From: Deltaproteobacteria bacterium
GTDB lineage: Bacteria; Myxococcota_A; UBA9160; UBA6930
NCBI GenBank assembly: GCA_016875395.1
Contig: VGRF01000004.1
Coordinates: 1-64,000, forward strand
DNA length: 64,000 nucleotides
Direction: 5' to 3'
This document shows positions 49,741 to 60,864 of this stretch, one piece after another. The position numbers and the translations under genes are program-made. The number at the start of each line of letters is the position of its first letter. Position 1 is the first letter of the stretch. The notes below the pieces were generated by a model. The model was not told the origin of the DNA. It saw only the letters and a program-made list of their open reading frames with translations, and did no database searches.

Positions 49741-51021
49741 TTAGGCGTCGTACTCGATCCACAGCTCGCGCGGCGAACGGAAGCCGCCCGAGTCGATCGA
49801 GGGCGCGACGATGCCTTCATGCTGCGCGTGCTTCGGACGCGGGCTCTTCAGCGCCTCGGCGAGCTTCGTGCACGCGATCACCGTCTCCTGCCGCGCCATC
49901 GCGTAGCCCATGCAGAAGTGTTGGCCGATGCCGAAGCCGAGGTGGCCGTTCTTGCCGTCGAGGTACTTGCCCGAGCGGTTCTCGCGGCCCATGTGCAGAT
50001 CGTCGCGGTGGATGTCGAACGTGTCGGGCGCCTTGAACGCGCGCTCGTCGCGATTCCCGGCGCCGAGATAGAGCGTGATGCTCGCGCGTTCAGGAATGAC
50101 CTTGCCGTGCAGCTCGATCTCGCGCGTCGTGCGGCGGAACTGCATGTGCACGACGGGGTCGTACCGCATCATCTCGCTGAACACGTTGCTCCAGAGCGAC
50201 GGATCCTTCTTCACGTCCTCGAACTGGTCCGGCCGCGTGTAGAGCATGTGGAACCACATGTTCGCGATCGCCTTGTCCGTGGTGTCGCCGCCCGCGGCCA
50301 AGAGCAACGCGACGAACCCCTTGATCTCGGCGTCGCTCATGCGCACGCCGTTCTGGTCCGCGGCGATGATGCGCGAGAGCAGGTCCTCGCCGGGCCGCGC
50401 GCGGCGTTCCTCGATCAGCGGCGTCAGGTACTCCCACATCTCGTTGCGCGCCTGGATGCCGCGCGCGAGGTGAATGCCGCCGAAGCCGAGGCCGGCGATC
50501 AGCGCCTGATACCAGCCGACGAAGCGGTCCTCGTCTTGGCGCGGCAGGCCGAGCATGTTCGAGATCACGCGGATCGGGAACTGGTGCGTGAACTCCTCCA
50601 CCAGCTCCACCTCGCCGCGACCCAACAGTTTGTCGATCAGCTCGCCGGCGATCTTCTCGATCACCGGGATGAACACGTCGAGCCGATTCCCGACGAACTG
50701 GCCCGCCACGACGTTGCGCAGGAAGCGGTGCTGTGGGCTGTTGCCGTACTCGAGGATGTTCGGCCCGAACACGTGCTCGGCGCCGAACTTGTAGGGGCCA
50801 CCCGGCTTGTGGATCGCGCGGTCGTAGCCGTCGTTGTCCTGGAACGCGGCGACCACGTCGTGGTAGCGGCTGATGATCCAGCGGTTGTGGAAGCGGTCGT
50901 GATAGGCGGGATGGTCGTCGCGCAGCCGCTTGTAGATCGGGAACGGATCGCGCTGGAACGCCGCCGAGTCGAACTCGCGCGGGTCGATCGCCTTCGCGAG
51001 GAACTCTTCCATCGAGCCCAT
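49741..51021 (-). CDS. Cytochrome P450
   Basis: 426-aa P450. Heme Cys in LGFGIGQHFCMGYAMARQE; I-helix LLLAAGGDTTDKAIANMWF; ExxR in SEMMRYDPVVH. N-terminal FQRDPFPIYKRLRDDHPAYH is normal. It is the third of three tandem P450-family genes, 13 bases after the stop of the cysteine-less homologue, and just upstream of the ferredoxin gene that likely serves it. Start ATG 51021; an internal Met at codon 4 is an alternative. Substrate unknown. Confidence 0.93.
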   Translation of the reverse strand: MGSMEEFLAKAIDPREFDSAAFQRDPFPIYKRLRDDHPAYHDRFHNRWIISRYHDVVAAFQDNDGYDRAIHKPGGPYKFGAEHVFGPNILEYGNSPQHRFLRNVVAGQFVGNRLDVFIPVIEKIAGELIDKLLGRGEVELVEEFTHQFPIRVISNMLGLPRQDEDRFVGWYQALIAGLGFGGIHLARGIQARNEMWEYLTPLIEERRARPGEDLLSRIIAADQNGVRMSDAEIKGFVALLLAAGGDTTDKAIANMWFHMLYTRPDQFEDVKKDPSLWSNVFSEMMRYDPVVHMQFRRTTREIELHGKVIPERASITLYLGAGNRDERAFKAPDTFDIHRDDLHMGRENRSGKYLDGKNGHLGFGIGQHFCMGYAMARQETVIACTKLAEALKSPRPKHAQHEGIVAPSIDSGGFRSPRELWIEYDA

Positions 51022-51034
51022 GGCTGCCTCCTTG

Positions 51035-52378
51035 TTAGGCGCGGAACGTCACCGGCAGATGCCAGCACGTGTGCATCTCGCCGAGACCGAGGGACTGCAG
51101 GCGCGGCGCGGCGCCCGGCGCGAGGCGCAGCTCGCGCAGCGCGTCGAGCAGCACGTTGCTCGCGGTGACCGCGGCGTCGCGCGTGAGCGCGTAGCGCGAG
51201 CGCGGGCGGTCTTCGGGGAGCGCGGGATGCTTCGAGGGCGGCCCGAGCGCGAACGCGATGCCCGACGCGAGGCCGTCGGCGCGGTACATGCCGCGCGGCT
51301 CGCGCTGGGTGAGGTCCTTGCGTCCCACGACGAACGAGTCGGGGTCGCTGAACACGCGCGGGTCGCGATTGCCTGCGGCTGCGACGCACACGATCAGCGC
51401 GCCCTCCGGAAACACCTGCCCGAAGCGCTCCACCTCGTGCTTCGCGAAGCGCTTCGCGCTGAGCACCGGCGCCGAGTGCCGCATCGCCTCCAGCACCGCG
51501 AGCTTCAGCAGGCGCGCCTCCGGGCGGCGATTGCCCTCGACGCGCGCGAGCTGCTCGGGATGCGTGAGCAAGAGGAACCACAGATTCGCGAGCGTGCCGT
51601 GGAGCGTCTCGTGATCGCACTCGAGCAGCGTGGCAGTGAGGTCCTCCGCGGTCGCCGGCCCCTCTGCGAGCTCGAGCTGCGCCGCGACCGAGATGAAGTC
51701 GTCGCCGGGATTGCTGCGGCGCTTCGCGAGCAGCGGAGCGAAGTACGCCGTCAGCTCCGCGAACGCCTGCTTGCCCGCGAGATCACTCACCGCGCTCGCG
51801 TGAACGCCGCGCTGCATGCGCACGCTGCGCTCCACGAACGCGCCGCGATCCGCCTCGTGGATGCCCCACGCGCGCACGAGCAGCTCGAGCGGAAGCCGCG
51901 CGGCGAGCTCGCGCGCGAGGTCGGCGCTGCCGCGCGCTGCGAACGCCGACACGAGCTCGCGCACGATGCGCGGCGTCTCCTCGTCGAGTACGCGCGCCTC
52001 GTGCTGCAGCCACGCGAGCTCGCCGCGCAGATCGCGCCCGACCTGATCGAGTCCGTAGAACCAGCGCTTCGGGCGCGTCTCGTAGTTCGCGTCGTCGACG
52101 AAGATCGAGGTCGCGTCGTCGTAGCGCGTGATCCAGTACGCGTTGCCGACCCAATCGCGATAGCACGGGTAGTTCTCGCGCAGCGTCGTGAACGGCGTGT
52201 ACGGGTCGACGAGAAAGTCGGGCGAGATCAGCGCGCCCGGCCGCAGCTTCGCGGTCGACTCGCCAACGCGGCGGCGCTGGTGGATCTCGTACGTGCGAAA
52301 CACCTGCGCACCCGGCTTTCGGCGCGTGATCGCGACGCCGTTGCGGCCGACCGTCGTGTCCGTTTGCTGCTCGCTCAT
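51035..52378 (-). CDS. Cytochrome P450 homologue lacking the heme-ligand cysteine
   Basis: 447-aa protein with overall P450 organisation: LVDPYTPFTTLRENYPCYRD, ITRYDDATSIF, a K-helix ExxR (VLEAMRHSAPV) and AAAGNRDPRVFSDPDSFVVG. The heme loop, however, reads FALGPPSKHPALPEDRPRSR (about 376-395). The conserved FxxGxxxCxG is lost: the Cys position is Lys383/His384. The I-helix oxygen site is also altered (LLECDHETLHG for AGGDTT). No other frame restores a Cys. The only nearby Cys is Cys438 at the C-terminus. The frame is intact and codon use normal, so this seems a conserved non-canonical homologue, not a decaying gene. It lies between two ordinary P450 genes in one operon. Confidence 0.85.
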   Translation of the reverse strand: MSEQQTDTTVGRNGVAITRRKPGAQVFRTYEIHQRRRVGESTAKLRPGALISPDFLVDPYTPFTTLRENYPCYRDWVGNAYWITRYDDATSIFVDDANYETRPKRWFYGLDQVGRDLRGELAWLQHEARVLDEETPRIVRELVSAFAARGSADLARELAARLPLELLVRAWGIHEADRGAFVERSVRMQRGVHASAVSDLAGKQAFAELTAYFAPLLAKRRSNPGDDFISVAAQLELAEGPATAEDLTATLLECDHETLHGTLANLWFLLLTHPEQLARVEGNRRPEARLLKLAVLEAMRHSAPVLSAKRFAKHEVERFGQVFPEGALIVCVAAAGNRDPRVFSDPDSFVVGRKDLTQREPRGMYRADGLASGIAFALGPPSKHPALPEDRPRSRYALTRDAAVTASNVLLDALRELRLAPGAAPRLQSLGLGEMHTCWHLPVTFRA

Positions 52379-52385
52379 CGCTCGC

Positions 52386-53816
52386 TCACGCGCGGTCGTA
52401 GTCGAGCCATAGCTCGCGGATCGCGCCGAGCCCGATCGGCGCGAGGCTCACGCCGTCGATGTCCTTGGGCATGCGCGCGGTGTTGATGCGCACGTTCTTC
52501 AGCGTCGGCAGCAGAATCTGCGAGCCCGTCACCGACTCTTGGTGCGAGATCCACGCGCCGGGGCAGAGATGCGGCCCCACGCCGAACGCCATGTGATTCG
52601 AGCGCCCGTCCTTGCGGTAGCCGCTGCGCAGGATCTTGCCCGTGTAGAGGTCGCGTCGCGCGATGTCGAAGCGCTCGGGGTCGGCGAACACGCGATCGTC
52701 GTGATTCGCGGAGACATCGACCATGTTCACGAGCGAGCCGGCCGGGATGCGCACGCCATGCATCTCGACGTCGAACGTGTTGTGCCGGGGCTGGCCGCCG
52801 ATCGAGGTCGAGTGGCGCAGGGTCTCGTGGAAGGCGGCGTCCCAGAGCGACTCGTCCGCGCGCAGCCGCGCGAACTGATCGGGGTGCTGCAGCAGCAAGT
52901 ACCACATGTTGAGGATCGCCCCGCGCGTGGTCTCGCCGCCGCCGCCCACGATCAGCGCGATGTTCGAGGTGATCTCCTCGGTCGAGAGGTAATCGCCATC
53001 GAGCTGCGACTCGCACAGCTTCGAGATGATGTCCTTGCCGAGCGGGTTGCCCGCCTCGTCGTACAGGTACGTCGGCTTCACGCGGCGCTGCTCGACGATG
53101 CCCTCGACGTAGTCCTCGAGGTGCTGACGCGCTTCGAGGCCCTTCTGCTGCGTCTCGGAGCCGCCGAGCCCGAGCATCATCGAGTTGTACCAGTAGAAGA
53201 ACGCGTCGCTGGCTTCTTCCGGGAAACCGAGCACCTGGCACACCACGCGGATCGGGAACTCGTTCGCGAACGCGCGGCCGAGCTCCACCGTGCGGGTTCC
53301 GTCCGCGTGGTCGATCACGTGATCGGCCTTCGCAGCGTCCCAGGCCGCGATCATCTTCTGCGCGAGGCTGCGAATCGCCGGGATTCTGTTCTGCAGCGAC
53401 TGGCCGACGAGGTGCTGGCCGTAGAGATTCCGCCGCCGGCGATGCTCGACGCCCGAGAGCTCGAGCTGGGTGTTCCCGAGCACGCCGCTCGAGCTGCCCT
53501 TCGGGATCGTGTTCCAGCCCTCGTCGTCGAAATAACAACTCGTGATGTCGTCGTAGCGCGTGACGTAATAACAGTTGTGCAGCTTGTCGTAGTAGACGGG
53601 GTAATGGTCGCGCAGGATCCGGTAGTACGGGTACGGGTTCCGCGCGAATTCGGGCGTGTCGAAGATGCGCGGGTCGACGAGCGGCGTGCCGTCCGGCGCG
53701 TGCCCCATGTCCACGGCTTGGCCGAGGGGCATCAGCGGAAAGCGGCGCGGCGCGGGCGGGCTCGCCGCGACCGCGCGCGACTGCTCGGCGAGGAACGAGT
53801 CGATCGAAGTGGCCAT
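52386..53816 (-). CDS. Cytochrome P450
   Basis: 476-aa P450, first gene of the tandem set. Heme Cys in MAFGVGPHLCPGAWISHQE; I-helix ALIVGGGGETTRGAILNMW; ExxR in FHETLRHSTSI. N-terminus includes NPYPYYRILRDHYPVYYD and is about 40 residues longer than its neighbours. The shared ending ELWLDYDRA / ELWIEYDA indicates common ancestry with the P450 at 49741. It is separated from the cysteine-less gene by seven bases and is divergent from the SnoaL/ferredoxin genes. Confidence 0.93.
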   Translation of the reverse strand: MATSIDSFLAEQSRAVAASPPAPRRFPLMPLGQAVDMGHAPDGTPLVDPRIFDTPEFARNPYPYYRILRDHYPVYYDKLHNCYYVTRYDDITSCYFDDEGWNTIPKGSSSGVLGNTQLELSGVEHRRRRNLYGQHLVGQSLQNRIPAIRSLAQKMIAAWDAAKADHVIDHADGTRTVELGRAFANEFPIRVVCQVLGFPEEASDAFFYWYNSMMLGLGGSETQQKGLEARQHLEDYVEGIVEQRRVKPTYLYDEAGNPLGKDIISKLCESQLDGDYLSTEEITSNIALIVGGGGETTRGAILNMWYLLLQHPDQFARLRADESLWDAAFHETLRHSTSIGGQPRHNTFDVEMHGVRIPAGSLVNMVDVSANHDDRVFADPERFDIARRDLYTGKILRSGYRKDGRSNHMAFGVGPHLCPGAWISHQESVTGSQILLPTLKNVRINTARMPKDIDGVSLAPIGLGAIRELWLDYDRA

Positions 53817-53899
53817 GCGCGACCTCCCACGCGTTGCGAACGAAGCGTACCGCGCGCGATGCTGCGTTAAACCGCGTGCAAACGCATGGGGAGAGACGC
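53817..53899. promoter_or_regulatory. Divergent intergenic region, P450 and SnoaL operons
   Basis: This 83-base region separates the tandem P450 operon (-) from the SnoaL/ferredoxin/GST run (+). Promoters for both are expected here. A GGGGAGAG ribosome-binding site precedes ATG 53900. No operator repeat was clear. Confidence 0.4.
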
Positions 53900-54349
53900 A
53901 TGACCCTCGACCAACTGCTCGAGATCGAAGAAATCCGCCAGCTGCGCGTGCTCTACTCGCACTACTTCGACGGCAAGCAATTGGCGGGCCTCGTCGACCT
54001 GTTCACCGACGACGCCGTGTGCGAGTTCGGCCCCGACTACGGCGGCGACTGGGTCGGCAAGCCGCAGATTCGCGAGAACTACGCCAAGTACCTCGCGAGC
54101 GAAGGTCCCGAGCACGGCGTGATGCACGCCGTCACGAACCACAGCGTGCGTGTCGTGGACGCGACGACCGCGCTCGGGCGCTCGTACCTGCTCGACCTGC
54201 GCACGACGGAAGGCGTGGAGAACCCGCTGATTCTGTTCGGCGTGTACGACGACCTCTACAAGAAGGTCGGCGGCGCCTGGAAGATCCACCGCACGCGCAT
54301 CGACTTCCTGTGGCCGAAGCGCAGCTACGTCGGGCCGCGCAAGATCTGA
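53900..54349 (+). CDS. SnoaL/NTF2-like protein
   Basis: 149-aa NTF2-like protein. ATG 53900 is preferred over an upstream ATG at 53834. The N-terminus EEIRQLRVLYSHYFDGKQLA and DLFTDDAVCEFGPDYGG is the classic SnoaL start; the core strands GVYDDLYKKVGGAWKIHRTR complete the cone. Members are ketosteroid-isomerase-like, hydratase or dehydratase enzymes. It is paired with a second SnoaL gene and a ferredoxin, and probably acts in the same oxygenase pathway. Confidence 0.85.
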   Translation: MTLDQLLEIEEIRQLRVLYSHYFDGKQLAGLVDLFTDDAVCEFGPDYGGDWVGKPQIRENYAKYLASEGPEHGVMHAVTNHSVRVVDATTALGRSYLLDLRTTEGVENPLILFGVYDDLYKKVGGAWKIHRTRIDFLWPKRSYVGPRKI

Positions 54350-54415: not shown

Positions 54416-54703
54416 ATGACGTTCGTGATCGCCTCCGCGTGCGTGGACGTGAAGGACAAGTCCTGCATCGAGGTATGCCCGGTGAACTGCATCTACACGG
54501 ACCCGGACGACCGCATGTGCTTCATCCACCCGACCGAGTGCATCGACTGCGGCGTGTGCGAGTCCGCTTGCCCGGTGCAGGCAATCTTCCCGGGGAACGC
54601 GGTGCCGAGCGAAAGCAGCGAGTACACCGCGCTGAACGCGCTCTGGTTCGAGGACAAGAGCGCCGCGCGCGCAACGGTGAACAAGCTGAAGCCCAGCACC
54701 TAA
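54416..54703 (+). CDS. 7Fe ferredoxin (FdxA type)
   Basis: 95-aa ferredoxin with [3Fe-4S] and [4Fe-4S] clusters. By the Azotobacter FdI pattern Cys9, Cys17 and Cys52 bind the 3Fe cluster, and Cys21, Cys42, Cys45 and Cys48 the 4Fe cluster. Segments CIEVCPVNCIY and ECIDCGVCESACPVQAI are diagnostic. This is the second ferredoxin near the P450 block and may be an electron donor for the P450s or Rieske enzymes. TAA stop is in a CCTAACAG sequence. Confidence 0.93.
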   Translation: MTFVIASACVDVKDKSCIEVCPVNCIYTDPDDRMCFIHPTECIDCGVCESACPVQAIFPGNAVPSESSEYTALNALWFEDKSAARATVNKLKPST

Positions 54704-56609: not shown

Positions 56610-56992
56610 CAGCTCGCGTGGTGCTCGAGGATCTCGATCGGGTAGCCGTCGGGATCCTTCACGAACGCAGCGGTCACGGGCCAGCGATCGAGCCGCTGCG
56701 GTGCCGAGACGGGCTCGGCGCCGCCCGCGAGCGCGCGCTCGTAGAGGGCGCGGCAGTCGTCGGTCGCGAGATAGAGCTTCCAGAGCGCGTCGCCGTGTTG
56801 AATCGCGCCGCGCTGATCGTGCCGCCACGCGAGCTGGATGCGGTTGCCGCTCGCGCCCGCGAGCACGACCTCGCTCACGTTCGGGATCTCGATGCGATGC
56901 GTGACCGCGAGGCCGAGGCCGTTCTCTTAGAAACGCACCGAGCGCTCGAGGTCGCTCACGTGGATGCAGAACTGGTCGACGCTCGTCTTCAC
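56609..56992 (-). pseudogene. VOC/glyoxalase protein interrupted by in-frame TAA
   Basis: GTG 56992 overlaps the upstream stop (GTGA) and starts MKTSVDQFCIHVSDLERSVRF. TAA at 56927-56929 then ends the frame. The same frame continues ENGLGLAVTHRIEIPNVSEV to VKDPDGYPIEILEHH and TGA 56609-56611. In VOC proteins the position is nearly always Tyr (SVRFYENGLGL), so a single TAC/TAT to TAA change explains it. The whole would be 127 residues, a normal VOC length. The second part has an internal GTG/ATG (56878) that might allow partial translation. Possible substitution error or genuine nonsense mutation. Confidence 0.85.
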
Positions 56993-58455
56993 GCGCGCGC
57001 CCCTTCCCAGAAGCCGTGGAAGCCATACGGCTGGAGCGGCAGCGGAACCGCGGCGACCGGACCCTTCGCGAGCTGCTTCGGCTCGAACACGCACAGCTTC
57101 GACTCGCGCCGCTCGCCGTCGTAGACAAGTGCGACGACCCAGCCGTCTTCGAGGTCGGCTCCGCCCGGGCGCGGTGCGAACACCGGCTCGCCGACGAACT
57201 TGCCGGGACCTGGCGTCCACACGTCGGCCGGACGCTGCGCGTCCACCGCGTCTACGCGCGCCACCGAGTCGAACGGGTCCGAGAAGCGCACGTCGCTGCG
57301 CGCCGAAGCATAGATCGCGGGCGCGGAGCGGCCCTCGCGCTCGGGGTGCACGCGCGGGAAGTCCATGCCGAGCGGCGCGAGCTGCTCCCACTTCGCGTCG
57401 TCCGTGTCGTCGCGCACCGTGGCGCGATACAGGCGCTGAATCGAAGCTCGCCGATCCGGCGCTTCGGGATCGAGCGGCCGCTTCGCGCCCTGGAAGCCGA
57501 ACTCCTCGCCGAACTCGAACGACTCGAAGGCGCACAGCTCGACGGCACAGGTGCGGTCGTCCAGGTCGTGCGCGTTCGCGAAGTGGATCACGAACGCGCG
57601 CTGCGGCAGGCGGATCGTGCGCACCGGCCCTGGCCGCCCGCGCGGCACGAGGTAGAGCGCGCCGGGCTTCGAGGGGTCGGTGGCGATCGCCTCGATCAGC
57701 GTGCCGAGGCCGAGCGCGGCCTTGGCGAACTTCGCGAGCTTCGCCTTCATCGGGTTCGAGGCGACCACGTACCAGCGCGGCGTCACGACGAAGTCGTGCG
57801 TGAACGGCATGCCGGGCACGCTGGCTTCGCGCGTCTCGACCTGCACGCCGCTCGAGTCGAACTCGCGGAACGTGAAGCGCGCGGGGACGCTGCGCTGCAT
57901 GTTAAGCCCGACGAGGCGGCTCGCGCCGGTGTCGATGCGCACGTGCGCGAGGAACGTGCCGTCGGGCAGCGCGCCGCGATAGGTCTCTTCGCCGATGGTC
58001 TCGAGCGAGTCGGGGTCGAGCGCGTACGGCCGCCCGCCCTCCCAGCCTGATAACAAGCGGTCGGCCCACGGCTGAATCGTCGTGTTCGAGACGTTGCGCG
58101 GCCCCGGCGCGCGGAAGTTCGCGAGCGGCGAATCGCTCACGGGCGTGCCGAGGCCCTTGTACACGAGCTTCCCTGCCGCGCGCTCGGCGACGTAGGCGGG
58201 CGTGCGCACGAAGCGCGACTTGAAGCGCGCGCCGCCGCTCTTGGTGAGCTCGAGCGCGCGCACGAAGCCGTGGCCGTCGAACGGGTGAGCGAGGCGCCCG
58301 CCGATCTTCGTCCAGCCCGGCCCGTTCTGAAGATGTCTCCCGCCTGCGAGGTCTGCGGGGATGCGCCCCTCGATCGCCGACGCCGGAATCTCGAGATCGA
58401 GCTCGCCGGGCTCCGCCGTCATCACCGTGTTCCACGCAGCCGCTCGTCCGCTCAT
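56989..58455 (-). CDS. Carotenoid cleavage oxygenase (RPE65/lignostilbene dioxygenase family)
   Basis: 488-aa seven-bladed propeller oxygenase. Iron-binding His are in FTHDFVVTPRWYVV, VIHFANAHDLDD and the C-terminal YGFHGFWEG; a fourth is in the middle. N-terminal GRIPADLAGGRHLQNGPGW and HPFDGHGFVRALEL are family landmarks. It cleaves a double bond in carotenoids, apocarotenoids or stilbenes to two carbonyls. In an operon with a Baeyer-Villiger monooxygenase, cupin and MFS permease, it may open a terpenoid chain or stilbene. Confidence 0.9.
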   Translation of the reverse strand: MSGRAAAWNTVMTAEPGELDLEIPASAIEGRIPADLAGGRHLQNGPGWTKIGGRLAHPFDGHGFVRALELTKSGGARFKSRFVRTPAYVAERAAGKLVYKGLGTPVSDSPLANFRAPGPRNVSNTTIQPWADRLLSGWEGGRPYALDPDSLETIGEETYRGALPDGTFLAHVRIDTGASRLVGLNMQRSVPARFTFREFDSSGVQVETREASVPGMPFTHDFVVTPRWYVVASNPMKAKLAKFAKAALGLGTLIEAIATDPSKPGALYLVPRGRPGPVRTIRLPQRAFVIHFANAHDLDDRTCAVELCAFESFEFGEEFGFQGAKRPLDPEAPDRRASIQRLYRATVRDDTDDAKWEQLAPLGMDFPRVHPEREGRSAPAIYASARSDVRFSDPFDSVARVDAVDAQRPADVWTPGPGKFVGEPVFAPRPGGADLEDGWVVALVYDGERRESKLCVFEPKQLAKGPVAAVPLPLQPYGFHGFWEGARA

Positions 58456-58565
58456 CGTGTCTGCACTCCATTGGGCCCGACGCGCACTGGCGCCGGCCGT
58501 TCTTCGCTTGGCGGACGCACCTTAGGCGTGTGCGTGCCCCGAGTCTTTGGCTGCGTGAAGGGCAT
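58452..58565 (-). CDS. Possible 37-aa leader ORF
   Basis: A 37-codon frame starting at ATG 58565 ends with TGA overlapping the carotenoid oxygenase start (58452-58455). It is rich in Thr, Pro and Arg (MPFTQPKTRGTHTPKV) and has only a weak ribosome-binding site. It fills most of the 124-base gap before the oxygenase gene. In GC-rich DNA such frames arise by chance. Confidence 0.2.
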   Translation of the reverse strand: MPFTQPKTRGTHTPKVRPPSEERPAPVRVGPNGVQTR

Positions 58566-58579
58566 GCGGCCCCCCGCGC

Positions 58580-59047
58580 TCAGACCGCGTTCGCCTTCCA
58601 ATCCGCGACGAGCAGCTCGATCGTGGTGTTCACGATCAGCGCGCCCTGCTCGTCTCGAATCTCGTACAGCACGCCGTCGCTCGCGTGGTTGCCGAAGAAC
58701 ACGAGGCCGCCCTCCGGCCCGCCGCACTCGAGGTGCGCATGCGCGTCGCCGGTGCTGAGCGCGTAATCGCCTGCGCGGCGCACGCGATGCCCGCCGCGCG
58801 TCCCGTCGGGGAGCACGTCCCACAGGTGCTGCTCGCCGGCGAGCACGAGGATCGTCGTGGTCGCGACGTGGCGGTGGATCGGGCAGTGCCCGCCGTCGCC
58901 GCGCCAGCGCACGACCATGTCGAGCGTTCCCGCGGCCACGTCGTAACCGAGGATCGCGTAGTCGTGGCGCACCTTGATCGCGCCGTTGGGATCGCCTGTC
59001 ACTTCGCGCCACTTGTGCTTGCGCTCGTCGAATCCGATCTGCGCCAT
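58580..59047 (-). CDS. Cupin-domain protein, 155 aa
   Basis: Cupin with motif 1 like GGHCPIHRHVATTTILVL (two His and a downstream Glu in AGEQHLWD) and motif 2 in GDAHAHLECGG. ATG 59047 has GGAG upstream. The single beta-barrel would hold Fe or Mn through these His residues, suggesting a small dioxygenase, dehydratase or isomerase. It lies between the BVMO and carotenoid oxygenase genes and likely acts on their shared pathway. Confidence 0.83.
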   Translation of the reverse strand: MAQIGFDERKHKWREVTGDPNGAIKVRHDYAILGYDVAAGTLDMVVRWRGDGGHCPIHRHVATTTILVLAGEQHLWDVLPDGTRGGHRVRRAGDYALSTGDAHAHLECGGPEGGLVFFGNHASDGVLYEIRDEQGALIVNTTIELLVADWKANAV

Positions 59048-59067
59048 CGCGCGCTCCTTCCGTTCGG

Positions 59068-60864
59068 TCAACTCAGCGTGAGGCCCGCAAGCGTTCCCTC
59101 GCGGCGCCACGCATCGAGCAGCTCTTCGAACTCGGTGGGCGCTCCCATGTAGAACCCATCCTGCCGACTCCGCTCCGAGGGCTGCCCCTCGTTGTTGTAG
59201 TACCCCGGCGTGCAGTTCTGCGCGAACTCGAGCGTGCTGCGCGCCTTCGCGAGCACTGCATCGACCCAGGCTTGCTCGGCCTCCGCGCTCGCTTCGAGCC
59301 GCTTCGCGCCGCGTCCGAGCGCAGCGCCCACGACGTAACCGATGTGCTTCGCTTGCAGGTCGATGATGTACGGGAAGTTCACCGTGAAAGCGGACTGCGC
59401 GATGCTCATCATGAAGCAGTTCGGGAAGCCGTGGATGTGGATGCCGTGGAGCGTGCGGATGCCATCGCGCCACTTCTCGCTGAGCGTGCGCCCGCCCTCC
59501 CCCACGACCGGGAAGCCGGAGCGGCGCGAGTAATCGGTCCCGACTTCGAAGCCGGTCGCGAAGATCAAGCAGTCGAGCGCGATCTCGCGTCCGTTCGCGA
59601 CGACGCCGCGAGGCGTGACGCGCTCGACGCCGCGTCCGTCCGTGTCGACGAGCGTGACGTTCGGTCGGTTGAACGTCGGCAGGTACTCGTCGTGAAAGCA
59701 CGGGCGCTTGCAGAACTGCCGGTACCACGGCTTCAGCTTCGCCGCGGTCGCCGGGTCGCGAACGCTCGCGTCCACGCGCGCGCGCACCTCTTCCATCTTC
59801 TCGAAGTCCGCGAGCTCGACCGTGCGCGCGATCGCCTCGGGGGAGAGCTCGGCCGGCGTGGTCGACAGCATCTTGCTGAGCAGCTTGCGCGTGATGTCGG
59901 TCCAGCCGTCCGCAACGAGATCCTCAGGCTGGAAGCCGCCCGCGGTGAGGATCTGGAAGTTGGCGACGCGCTGCTGGTGCCAGCCGGGCGCAAGGGCCGC
60001 TGCCCACGCGGGATCGGTCGGTCGGTTGGCGCGCACGTCCACCGAAGACGGCGTGCGTTGGAAGACGAAGAGGTGCTGCGCGCTCGCGCCGAGATGCGGG
60101 ATGCACTGCACGGCGGTCGCGCCGGTGCCGACGATGCCGACGCGCTTGTCGCGCAGCCCTTCGAGATTCCCGCTCGCGTCGCCGCCGGTGTACGCGTAGT
60201 CCCAGCGGCTGGTGTGGAAGCAGTGGCCCGCAAACTCTTCGAGCCCCGGAATGCCGGGCAGCTTCGGCTTCTGCAGGTAGCCGTTCGAGAGCACCACGAA
60301 GCGCGCGCGCATCGCGTCGCCGCGGTTCGTGCGCACCACCCAGCGCGCGTCCGCGGCGTCCCAGCGCAGCTCGGTGACCTCCGTCTGCAGGCAGATGTCG
60401 CGATACAAGTCGAACTTGCGGGCGATCGCCTGGCAGTGCGCATAGATCTCTTCGCCGCGGCTGTACTTCTCCTTCGGGACGTAGCCGAGCTCTTCGAGGA
60501 GCGGGAGATATACGTAGGACTCGATGTCGCAGGCCACGCCGGGGTAGCGGTTCCAGTACCACGTGCCGCCGACATCGCCGCCCTTCTCGATGAGTCGCAG
60601 GCGCTGAACGCCGCGCTGCCGCAGCCGCACTCCGGCGAGGAGCCCGCCGAAGCCGCCGCCGATCAGCGCGACGTCGATCTCGTCCGTCAGCGGCGCGCGC
60701 GTGATCGGCGCGCTGAACGGATCCTCTTCGAAGCGCGCGAATCGCCCCTTCGCCTCGACGTACTGCGCGATGCCGTCCGCGCGCAGCCGCTTCTCGCGCT
60801 CGGCGCGGTACTTCGCGCGCAGCGCCTCGGCGTCGAAACCCAGCCGCGATCCCGAGTCGCTCAC
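59068..60864 (-). CDS. Flavin-containing Baeyer-Villiger monooxygenase
   Basis: 598-aa class B flavoprotein monooxygenase. FAD Rossmann motif VALIGGGFGGLLAGVRLR, GGDVGGTWYWNRYPGVACD, the BVMO fingerprint FAGHCFHTSRWDYAYT (FxGxxxHxxxWD variant), NADPH motif VGIVGTGATAVQCIP and CLIFATGFEVGTDY. About 60 extra N-terminal residues precede the FAD domain, as in some cyclic-ketone and steroid BVMOs. It inserts oxygen next to a ketone, giving an ester or lactone. Such enzymes act on ionone-type ketones or cyclic terpenones. Confidence 0.93.
   Translation of the reverse strand: MSDSGSRLGFDAEALRAKYRAEREKRLRADGIAQYVEAKGRFARFEEDPFSAPITRAPLTDEIDVALIGGGFGGLLAGVRLRQRGVQRLRLIEKGGDVGGTWYWNRYPGVACDIESYVYLPLLEELGYVPKEKYSRGEEIYAHCQAIARKFDLYRDICLQTEVTELRWDAADARWVVRTNRGDAMRARFVVLSNGYLQKPKLPGIPGLEEFAGHCFHTSRWDYAYTGGDASGNLEGLRDKRVGIVGTGATAVQCIPHLGASAQHLFVFQRTPSSVDVRANRPTDPAWAAALAPGWHQQRVANFQILTAGGFQPEDLVADGWTDITRKLLSKMLSTTPAELSPEAIARTVELADFEKMEEVRARVDASVRDPATAAKLKPWYRQFCKRPCFHDEYLPTFNRPNVTLVDTDGRGVERVTPRGVVANGREIALDCLIFATGFEVGTDYSRRSGFPVVGEGGRTLSEKWRDGIRTLHGIHIHGFPNCFMMSIAQSAFTVNFPYIIDLQAKHIGYVVGAALGRGAKRLEASAEAEQAWVDAVLAKARSTLEFAQNCTPGYYNNEGQPSERSRQDGFYMGAPTEFEELLDAWRREGTLAGLTLS

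Follow-up and report, generated by a model that had tools for sequence, protein, structure and literature searches.

A conserved P450 homologue lacking the heme-ligating cysteine as a putative obligate subunit of its upstream P450 neighbor

As far as we are aware, a P450 is regarded as a catalyst made of a single polypeptide and served by redox partners. Among the P450 homologues with auxiliary functions, EryCII, which has no C helix, assembles with its glycosyltransferase partner into a heterotetramer and both stabilises and activates this partner (PMC3391682). The proteins of this type (EryCII, DesVIII, TylMIII and AknT; family model TIGR04515) share with the protein presented here, named LESS, the absence of the heme cysteine, a reduced C-helix region and an auxiliary relation to the enzyme encoded by an adjacent gene (PMC3391682). 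Another case is EutEFG from euthailol biosynthesis, a split, catalytically inactive P450-like complex, for which a structural helper role for another enzyme was suggested (PMC11574762). In the open-licence literature no description was found of a P450/pseudo-P450 gene pair such as the one analyzed below.

The analyzed window is a stretch of 64,000 nucleotides (positions 1–64,000 of contig VGRF01000004.1, assembly GCA_016875395.1, Deltaproteobacteria bacterium). The LESS gene occupies positions 51035..52378 of the minus strand (read from 52378 to 51035), starts with ATG and encodes 447 amino acids. It lies between two intact P450 genes of the same strand: P450A upstream (52386..53816, 476 aa) and P450C downstream (49741..51021, 426 aa, heme loop FGIGQHFCMG), at distances of 7 and 13 bp, respectively; the junction between the P450A stop and the LESS start reads TGAGCGAGCGATG (52376..52388, minus strand). 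P450A has the ExxR residues E331/R334, the I-helix motif GGGGETT and the heme loop FGVGPHLCPG with the ligand Cys418 (residues 408–420, HMAFGVGPHLCPG, 52557..52595, minus strand). The source genome contains approximately 38 P450 loci in 4.5 Mb, which is unusually many. An earlier note made from the sequence alone had recognized a P450 homologue without the cysteine between two P450 genes, and the reading frame, its flanks and every quoted motif were confirmed on the minus strand, including the landmarks ExxR (E297-A-M-R300; 51479..51490, minus strand), NRDPRVFSDPDSF at residues 337–349 and FALGPPSKHPALP at residues 376–388, the latter standing in place of the Cys heme loop (51215..51253, minus strand). 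Its placement of Lys383/His384 at the Cys position depends on the alignment: plain counting gives Lys383, while His384 is obtained once a one-residue insertion aligns HPA to CPG. The I-helix segment LLECDHETL (residues 251–259), listed there as a departure from the usual motif, is present as described, but the acid/alcohol pair is retained in it, since E257-T258 aligns with E295-T296 of P450A.

A scan of genome contigs produced ten first relatives with 51–59% identity in metagenome-assembled genomes of Alphaproteobacteria, Gammaproteobacteria and Acidimicrobiia. Further profile searches detected LESS in 45 of the 207 genomes of one Pseudomonadales family, in 21 of the 222 genomes of an Ilumatobacteraceae family and in 8 of the 10 genomes of an alphaproteobacterial order. 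In all, no fewer than 70 genomes from several bacterial phyla contain LESS. The final set included 80 distinct sequences from Pseudomonadales, Alphaproteobacteria and Acidimicrobiia, 78 of them full length, and all residue counts given here refer to the latter. None of the 78 carries the FxxGxxxCxG loop with the axial cysteine; instead, they have in common a loop of their own, GxP[ST]xxPAxP..RPxSxxA, with G379, P381, P385, P388, R391, P392, S394 and A397 invariant and R400 nearly so. The second half of this loop (residues 389–400, EDRPRSRYALTR, 51179..51214, minus strand), to which R391, P392, S394 and A397 belong, is a family-specific insertion ahead of the L helix. Pairwise dN/dS between close relatives was 0.03–0.20 for LESS, indicating strong purifying selection, and 0.01–0.17 for P450A. 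A local deletion, frameshift or assembly error and a pseudogene were both rejected on the grounds of the same loop in 78 independent relatives and these dN/dS values, and the intact, real gene assumed in the earlier note was thereby upheld: neither a normal heme loop in the homologues nor a dN/dS near 1, the two results named there as fatal to the idea, was found.

In the maximum-likelihood tree the LESS sequences were monophyletic (100/100) with a long stem, and LESS, P450A and P450C together formed a clade (100/99) that excluded the genome's other P450s. On these sequences, it is most simply assumed that the cysteine was lost once and that the pair and the new loop were then kept across phyla. 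Within the class of the window's organism, no LESS relative above the threshold was found in the other 90 genomes (1 of 91 overall, with the best 18 candidates per genome scored). As the window genome is alone in its class in having LESS, the cassette looks horizontally acquired by this lineage, judging from the sequence comparison, and vertical inheritance was rejected on the same count. A search of plasmid records gave no match for the cassette.

A P450A orthologue was directly upstream of LESS on the same strand in 78 of the 80 loci, while the remaining two stop at contig edges, one of them retaining a P450A fragment of 81 aa. The gaps between the two genes ranged from -31 to +258 bp (-71 for one truncated LESS call), and many of the junctions were exact 4-bp ATGA/GTGA overlaps (gap -4). 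All 45 LESS-containing genomes of the 207-genome Pseudomonadales family also had P450A. Four further genomes of this family had a P450A-type match and no LESS match: in G149 a LESS gene starts at the contig end, in G253 the match is at a contig edge, in G262 it is at a contig edge and has 60% identity, and in G248 it is a member of a sister subfamily. At five alphaproteobacterial loci the pair was present in tandem, as A-LESS-A'-LESS'. The P450A-like genes that occur without LESS (loci L124–L127) belong to a separate sister subfamily with 55–63% identity to P450A and can serve as a natural control for the changes in a P450 on acquiring a LESS partner. These solo genes adjoin either a MATE transporter or a beta-lactamase-like gene, and 19 positions, several of them in the C helix and the heme loop, are diagnostic between their subfamily and P450A. 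P450C was the immediate downstream neighbor of LESS in approximately 20 of the 80 loci and lay at another place on the contig in others; we therefore regard it as an associate and not as an obligate partner. The suggestion that LESS is a partner of the flanking P450s points to the upstream one, present at every readable locus, and not to the downstream one. Pairwise distances of LESS and P450A were correlated (r = 0.60 for the 74 pairs compared), and in the 15 loci that also have P450C r was 0.88. Gene order of this kind is evidence of joint function, not of contact. At the level of sequence, it is demonstrated that the catalytic ligand has been lost, that the pairing is obligatory and that selection is purifying.

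An AlphaFold2 model of LESS from 11 alignment rows was poor (pLDDT 60), and a joint alignment of unpaired LESS and P450A rows was discarded, because it misplaced LESS onto P450A. A better model was obtained for locus L035, in which the P450A and LESS genes share a reading frame and are separated by a single stop: the TAG was read as a residue, resulting in an artificial fusion, which was modeled from 20 paired rows plus 40 LESS-only rows. The mean pLDDT over its 927 residues was 82.5 and the pTM 0.79, with most of the LESS half at pLDDT 90–97; the N-terminal part of LESS, inspected for a counterpart of the extra A'' helix that serves EryCII-type activators as interface, was of low confidence, with one short helix at fused residues 511–518. 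For two good halves placed independently of each other the pTM was estimated at near 0.5, and the value of 0.79 therefore implies a confident relative placement of P450A and LESS in the model, as derived from one pTM that the covalent link may bias. It supports a heterodimer, short of proof. The LESS half (fused residues 527–926) aligned with CYP134A1 (3nc3) over 367 residues with a Z score of 38.8, an rmsd of 2.3 and 23% identity, and in the model LESS retains the P450 fold. The partner idea of the earlier note is thus well supported by the constant adjacency to P450A, the duplication of the pair as a unit and the pTM of the fusion, and from the gene coupling and this single AlphaFold2 fusion model we infer a physical P450A-LESS heterodimer.

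Since LESS is always directly behind the same intact P450, its most likely function is that of a non-catalytic second subunit. We consider it fairly probable that LESS is a conserved pseudo-P450 that joins the upstream P450A in a heterodimer, as an obligate subunit probably devoid of heme. In such a scheme, LESS would have arisen once from the same subfamily as the neighboring P450s and would then have lost the heme-thiolate chemistry; by analogy with EryCII/EryCIII, it may act in stabilising or folding P450A, in shaping or loading its substrate pocket or in allosteric activation. In place of the heme loop, LESS has a strongly conserved polar cluster (RExRGxYRADGL, PEDRPRSxYAxxRD and ExD on the I helix), which would probably fill or reshape the vacated heme site or bind a polar ligand. 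The same residues can be read in another way: LESS might be a separate non-oxygenase enzyme, such as an isomerase or hydrolase, acting on either the substrate or the product of P450A, in which the polar residues in and around the old heme pocket would form the active site. A number of charged and polar residues are invariant or nearly so around this site in the 78 sequences (D255, H260, R359, E360, R362, R366, D368, R391, S394 and R400), and the loss of the cysteine together with the new invariant loop suggests gain of function over decay. However, the next step of a pathway seldom needs to be encoded adjacently in every genome and to be duplicated as a pair, and the two proteins are placed confidently relative to each other in the fused model, so that such new chemistry is judged unlikely.

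The proposal of a heme-free subunit draws on an alignment of LESS with 86 P450A, 22 P450C and 22 other P450s of the same genome. Apart from the axial cysteine, LESS has lost the propionate His of HxxFG, replaced by Gly in 77 sequences and by Ala in one, and the C-helix His, which is missing in all 78 along with a shortening of the B-C region. What was kept includes the complete ERR triad (E297, R300 and R353, 78/78 each), the sheet propionate Arg R310 (75/78) and, in most sequences, the acid/alcohol pair E257-T258 at the center of the I helix (residues 253–260, ECDHETLH, 51599..51622, minus strand), where D255 was found in 77, T258 in 76 and H260 in all 78. The match of LESS to the Pfam p450 model was weak (25.9 bits with a cut-off of 22.8), while in phmmer searches solved P450s matched it at E 1e-24, mainly over approximately residues 130 to 360. 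The retained R310 and ExxR, together with a His at position 384 in 61 of the 78, would permit a His-ligated heme in most members and with it a redox, sensor or peroxidase-like subunit; the earlier note had offered His384 or Cys438 as possible ligands. Position 384, which aligns best with the cysteine, is nevertheless variable (Tyr in 11, Phe in 4 and Trp in 2 of the sequences), and Cys438, conserved in 76 (W439 in 77) within the C-terminal motif GEMHTCWHLP (residues 433–442, 51053..51082, minus strand), sits on the C-terminal strand, so that with the propionate His and the C-helix His gone as well, binding of heme by either residue is not borne out and a heme-binding subunit is highly improbable. 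Because no proximal residue is conserved as a heme ligand, we infer that LESS is probably heme-free. A transient assembly chaperone or regulator of P450A, e.g., for heme insertion, which would not be a subunit of the mature enzyme, agrees with the frequent overlap and tight spacing of the reading frames, suggestive of co-translational assembly, and with EryCII/DesVIII having first been described as activators of debated complex stability (PMC3391682), but a stable interface is more in keeping with the high pTM of the joint model, although transient action is compatible with it as well, and we give this possibility little credence.

The genes that recur around the pairs vary and include SDRs, the 7Fe ferredoxin, SnoaL-like proteins, Rieske oxygenases, TetR regulators and more P450s. 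In the window, a divergent SnoaL-like protein is encoded at 53834..54349 and a divergent 7Fe-type ferredoxin at 54416..54703, both on the plus strand; relatives of the former adjoin six other pairs, and the same family as the latter is present near 12 loci, making this ferredoxin a possible redox partner and candidate electron donor. Such a set of genes resembles an oxidative degradation pathway for a terpenoid- or steroid-like compound. Near the P450 operon, at 56989–60864 of the minus strand, there are also genes for an RPE65-type carotenoid oxygenase and a flavin-binding (Baeyer-Villiger-like) monooxygenase.

Compared to ordinary bacterial class I P450s, represented by P450A and P450C, LESS belongs to the same clade and has the same fold, ExxR and I-helix acid/alcohol pair, but it is devoid of the Cys ligand, the propionate His and the C-helix His and has its own conserved loop. 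The closest solved fold for the LESS half among the matches listed was CYP134A1/CypX, which, like the other cyclodipeptide-associated P450s (TIGR04538), possesses heme and, in contrast to LESS, a Cys heme loop; LESS scored 102 bits against the TIGR04538 cut-off of 500. EutEFG is confined to a single cluster, where a P450 in three frameshifted pieces aids a non-P450 protein (PMC11574762), while LESS is a full-length conserved family.

The activators of the TIGR04515 type are paired with a glycosyltransferase, in contrast to LESS, whose partner gene encodes a P450. With this family model LESS scored 78 bits, far below the cut-off of 343 and lower than most other P450s of its genome, and the recurrent neighbor clusters of the pairs examined contained no glycosyltransferase; an EryCII-type glycosyltransferase activator was rejected on both counts. 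EryCII was not among the best 60 matches listed in the PDB sequence search or the best 50 in the structural comparison, which by itself excludes nothing, and the grouping of LESS with its P450 neighbors applies to the tree of LESS with P450A, P450C and other P450s of the genome. As the curated model places LESS outside the EryCII family and the partner of LESS is a P450, we propose a P450 of two subunits, one catalytic chain and one pseudo-P450 chain. Whether it extends to a widespread type of monooxygenase, in which the catalytic P450 would function only with its heme-less paralogue as a subunit and the gene pair would have spread across phyla, is in our estimation an evenly balanced question. 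If true, such a pair would enrich the P450 superfamily by a subunit architecture, and it would account for any seeming lack of activity in members of the P450A subfamily that are expressed without LESS. LESS is analogous to the EryCII/DesVIII activators and not a member of them, and would then be, next to the EryCII type and probably with an origin of its own, a second case of a heme-losing P450 turned into a partner protein.
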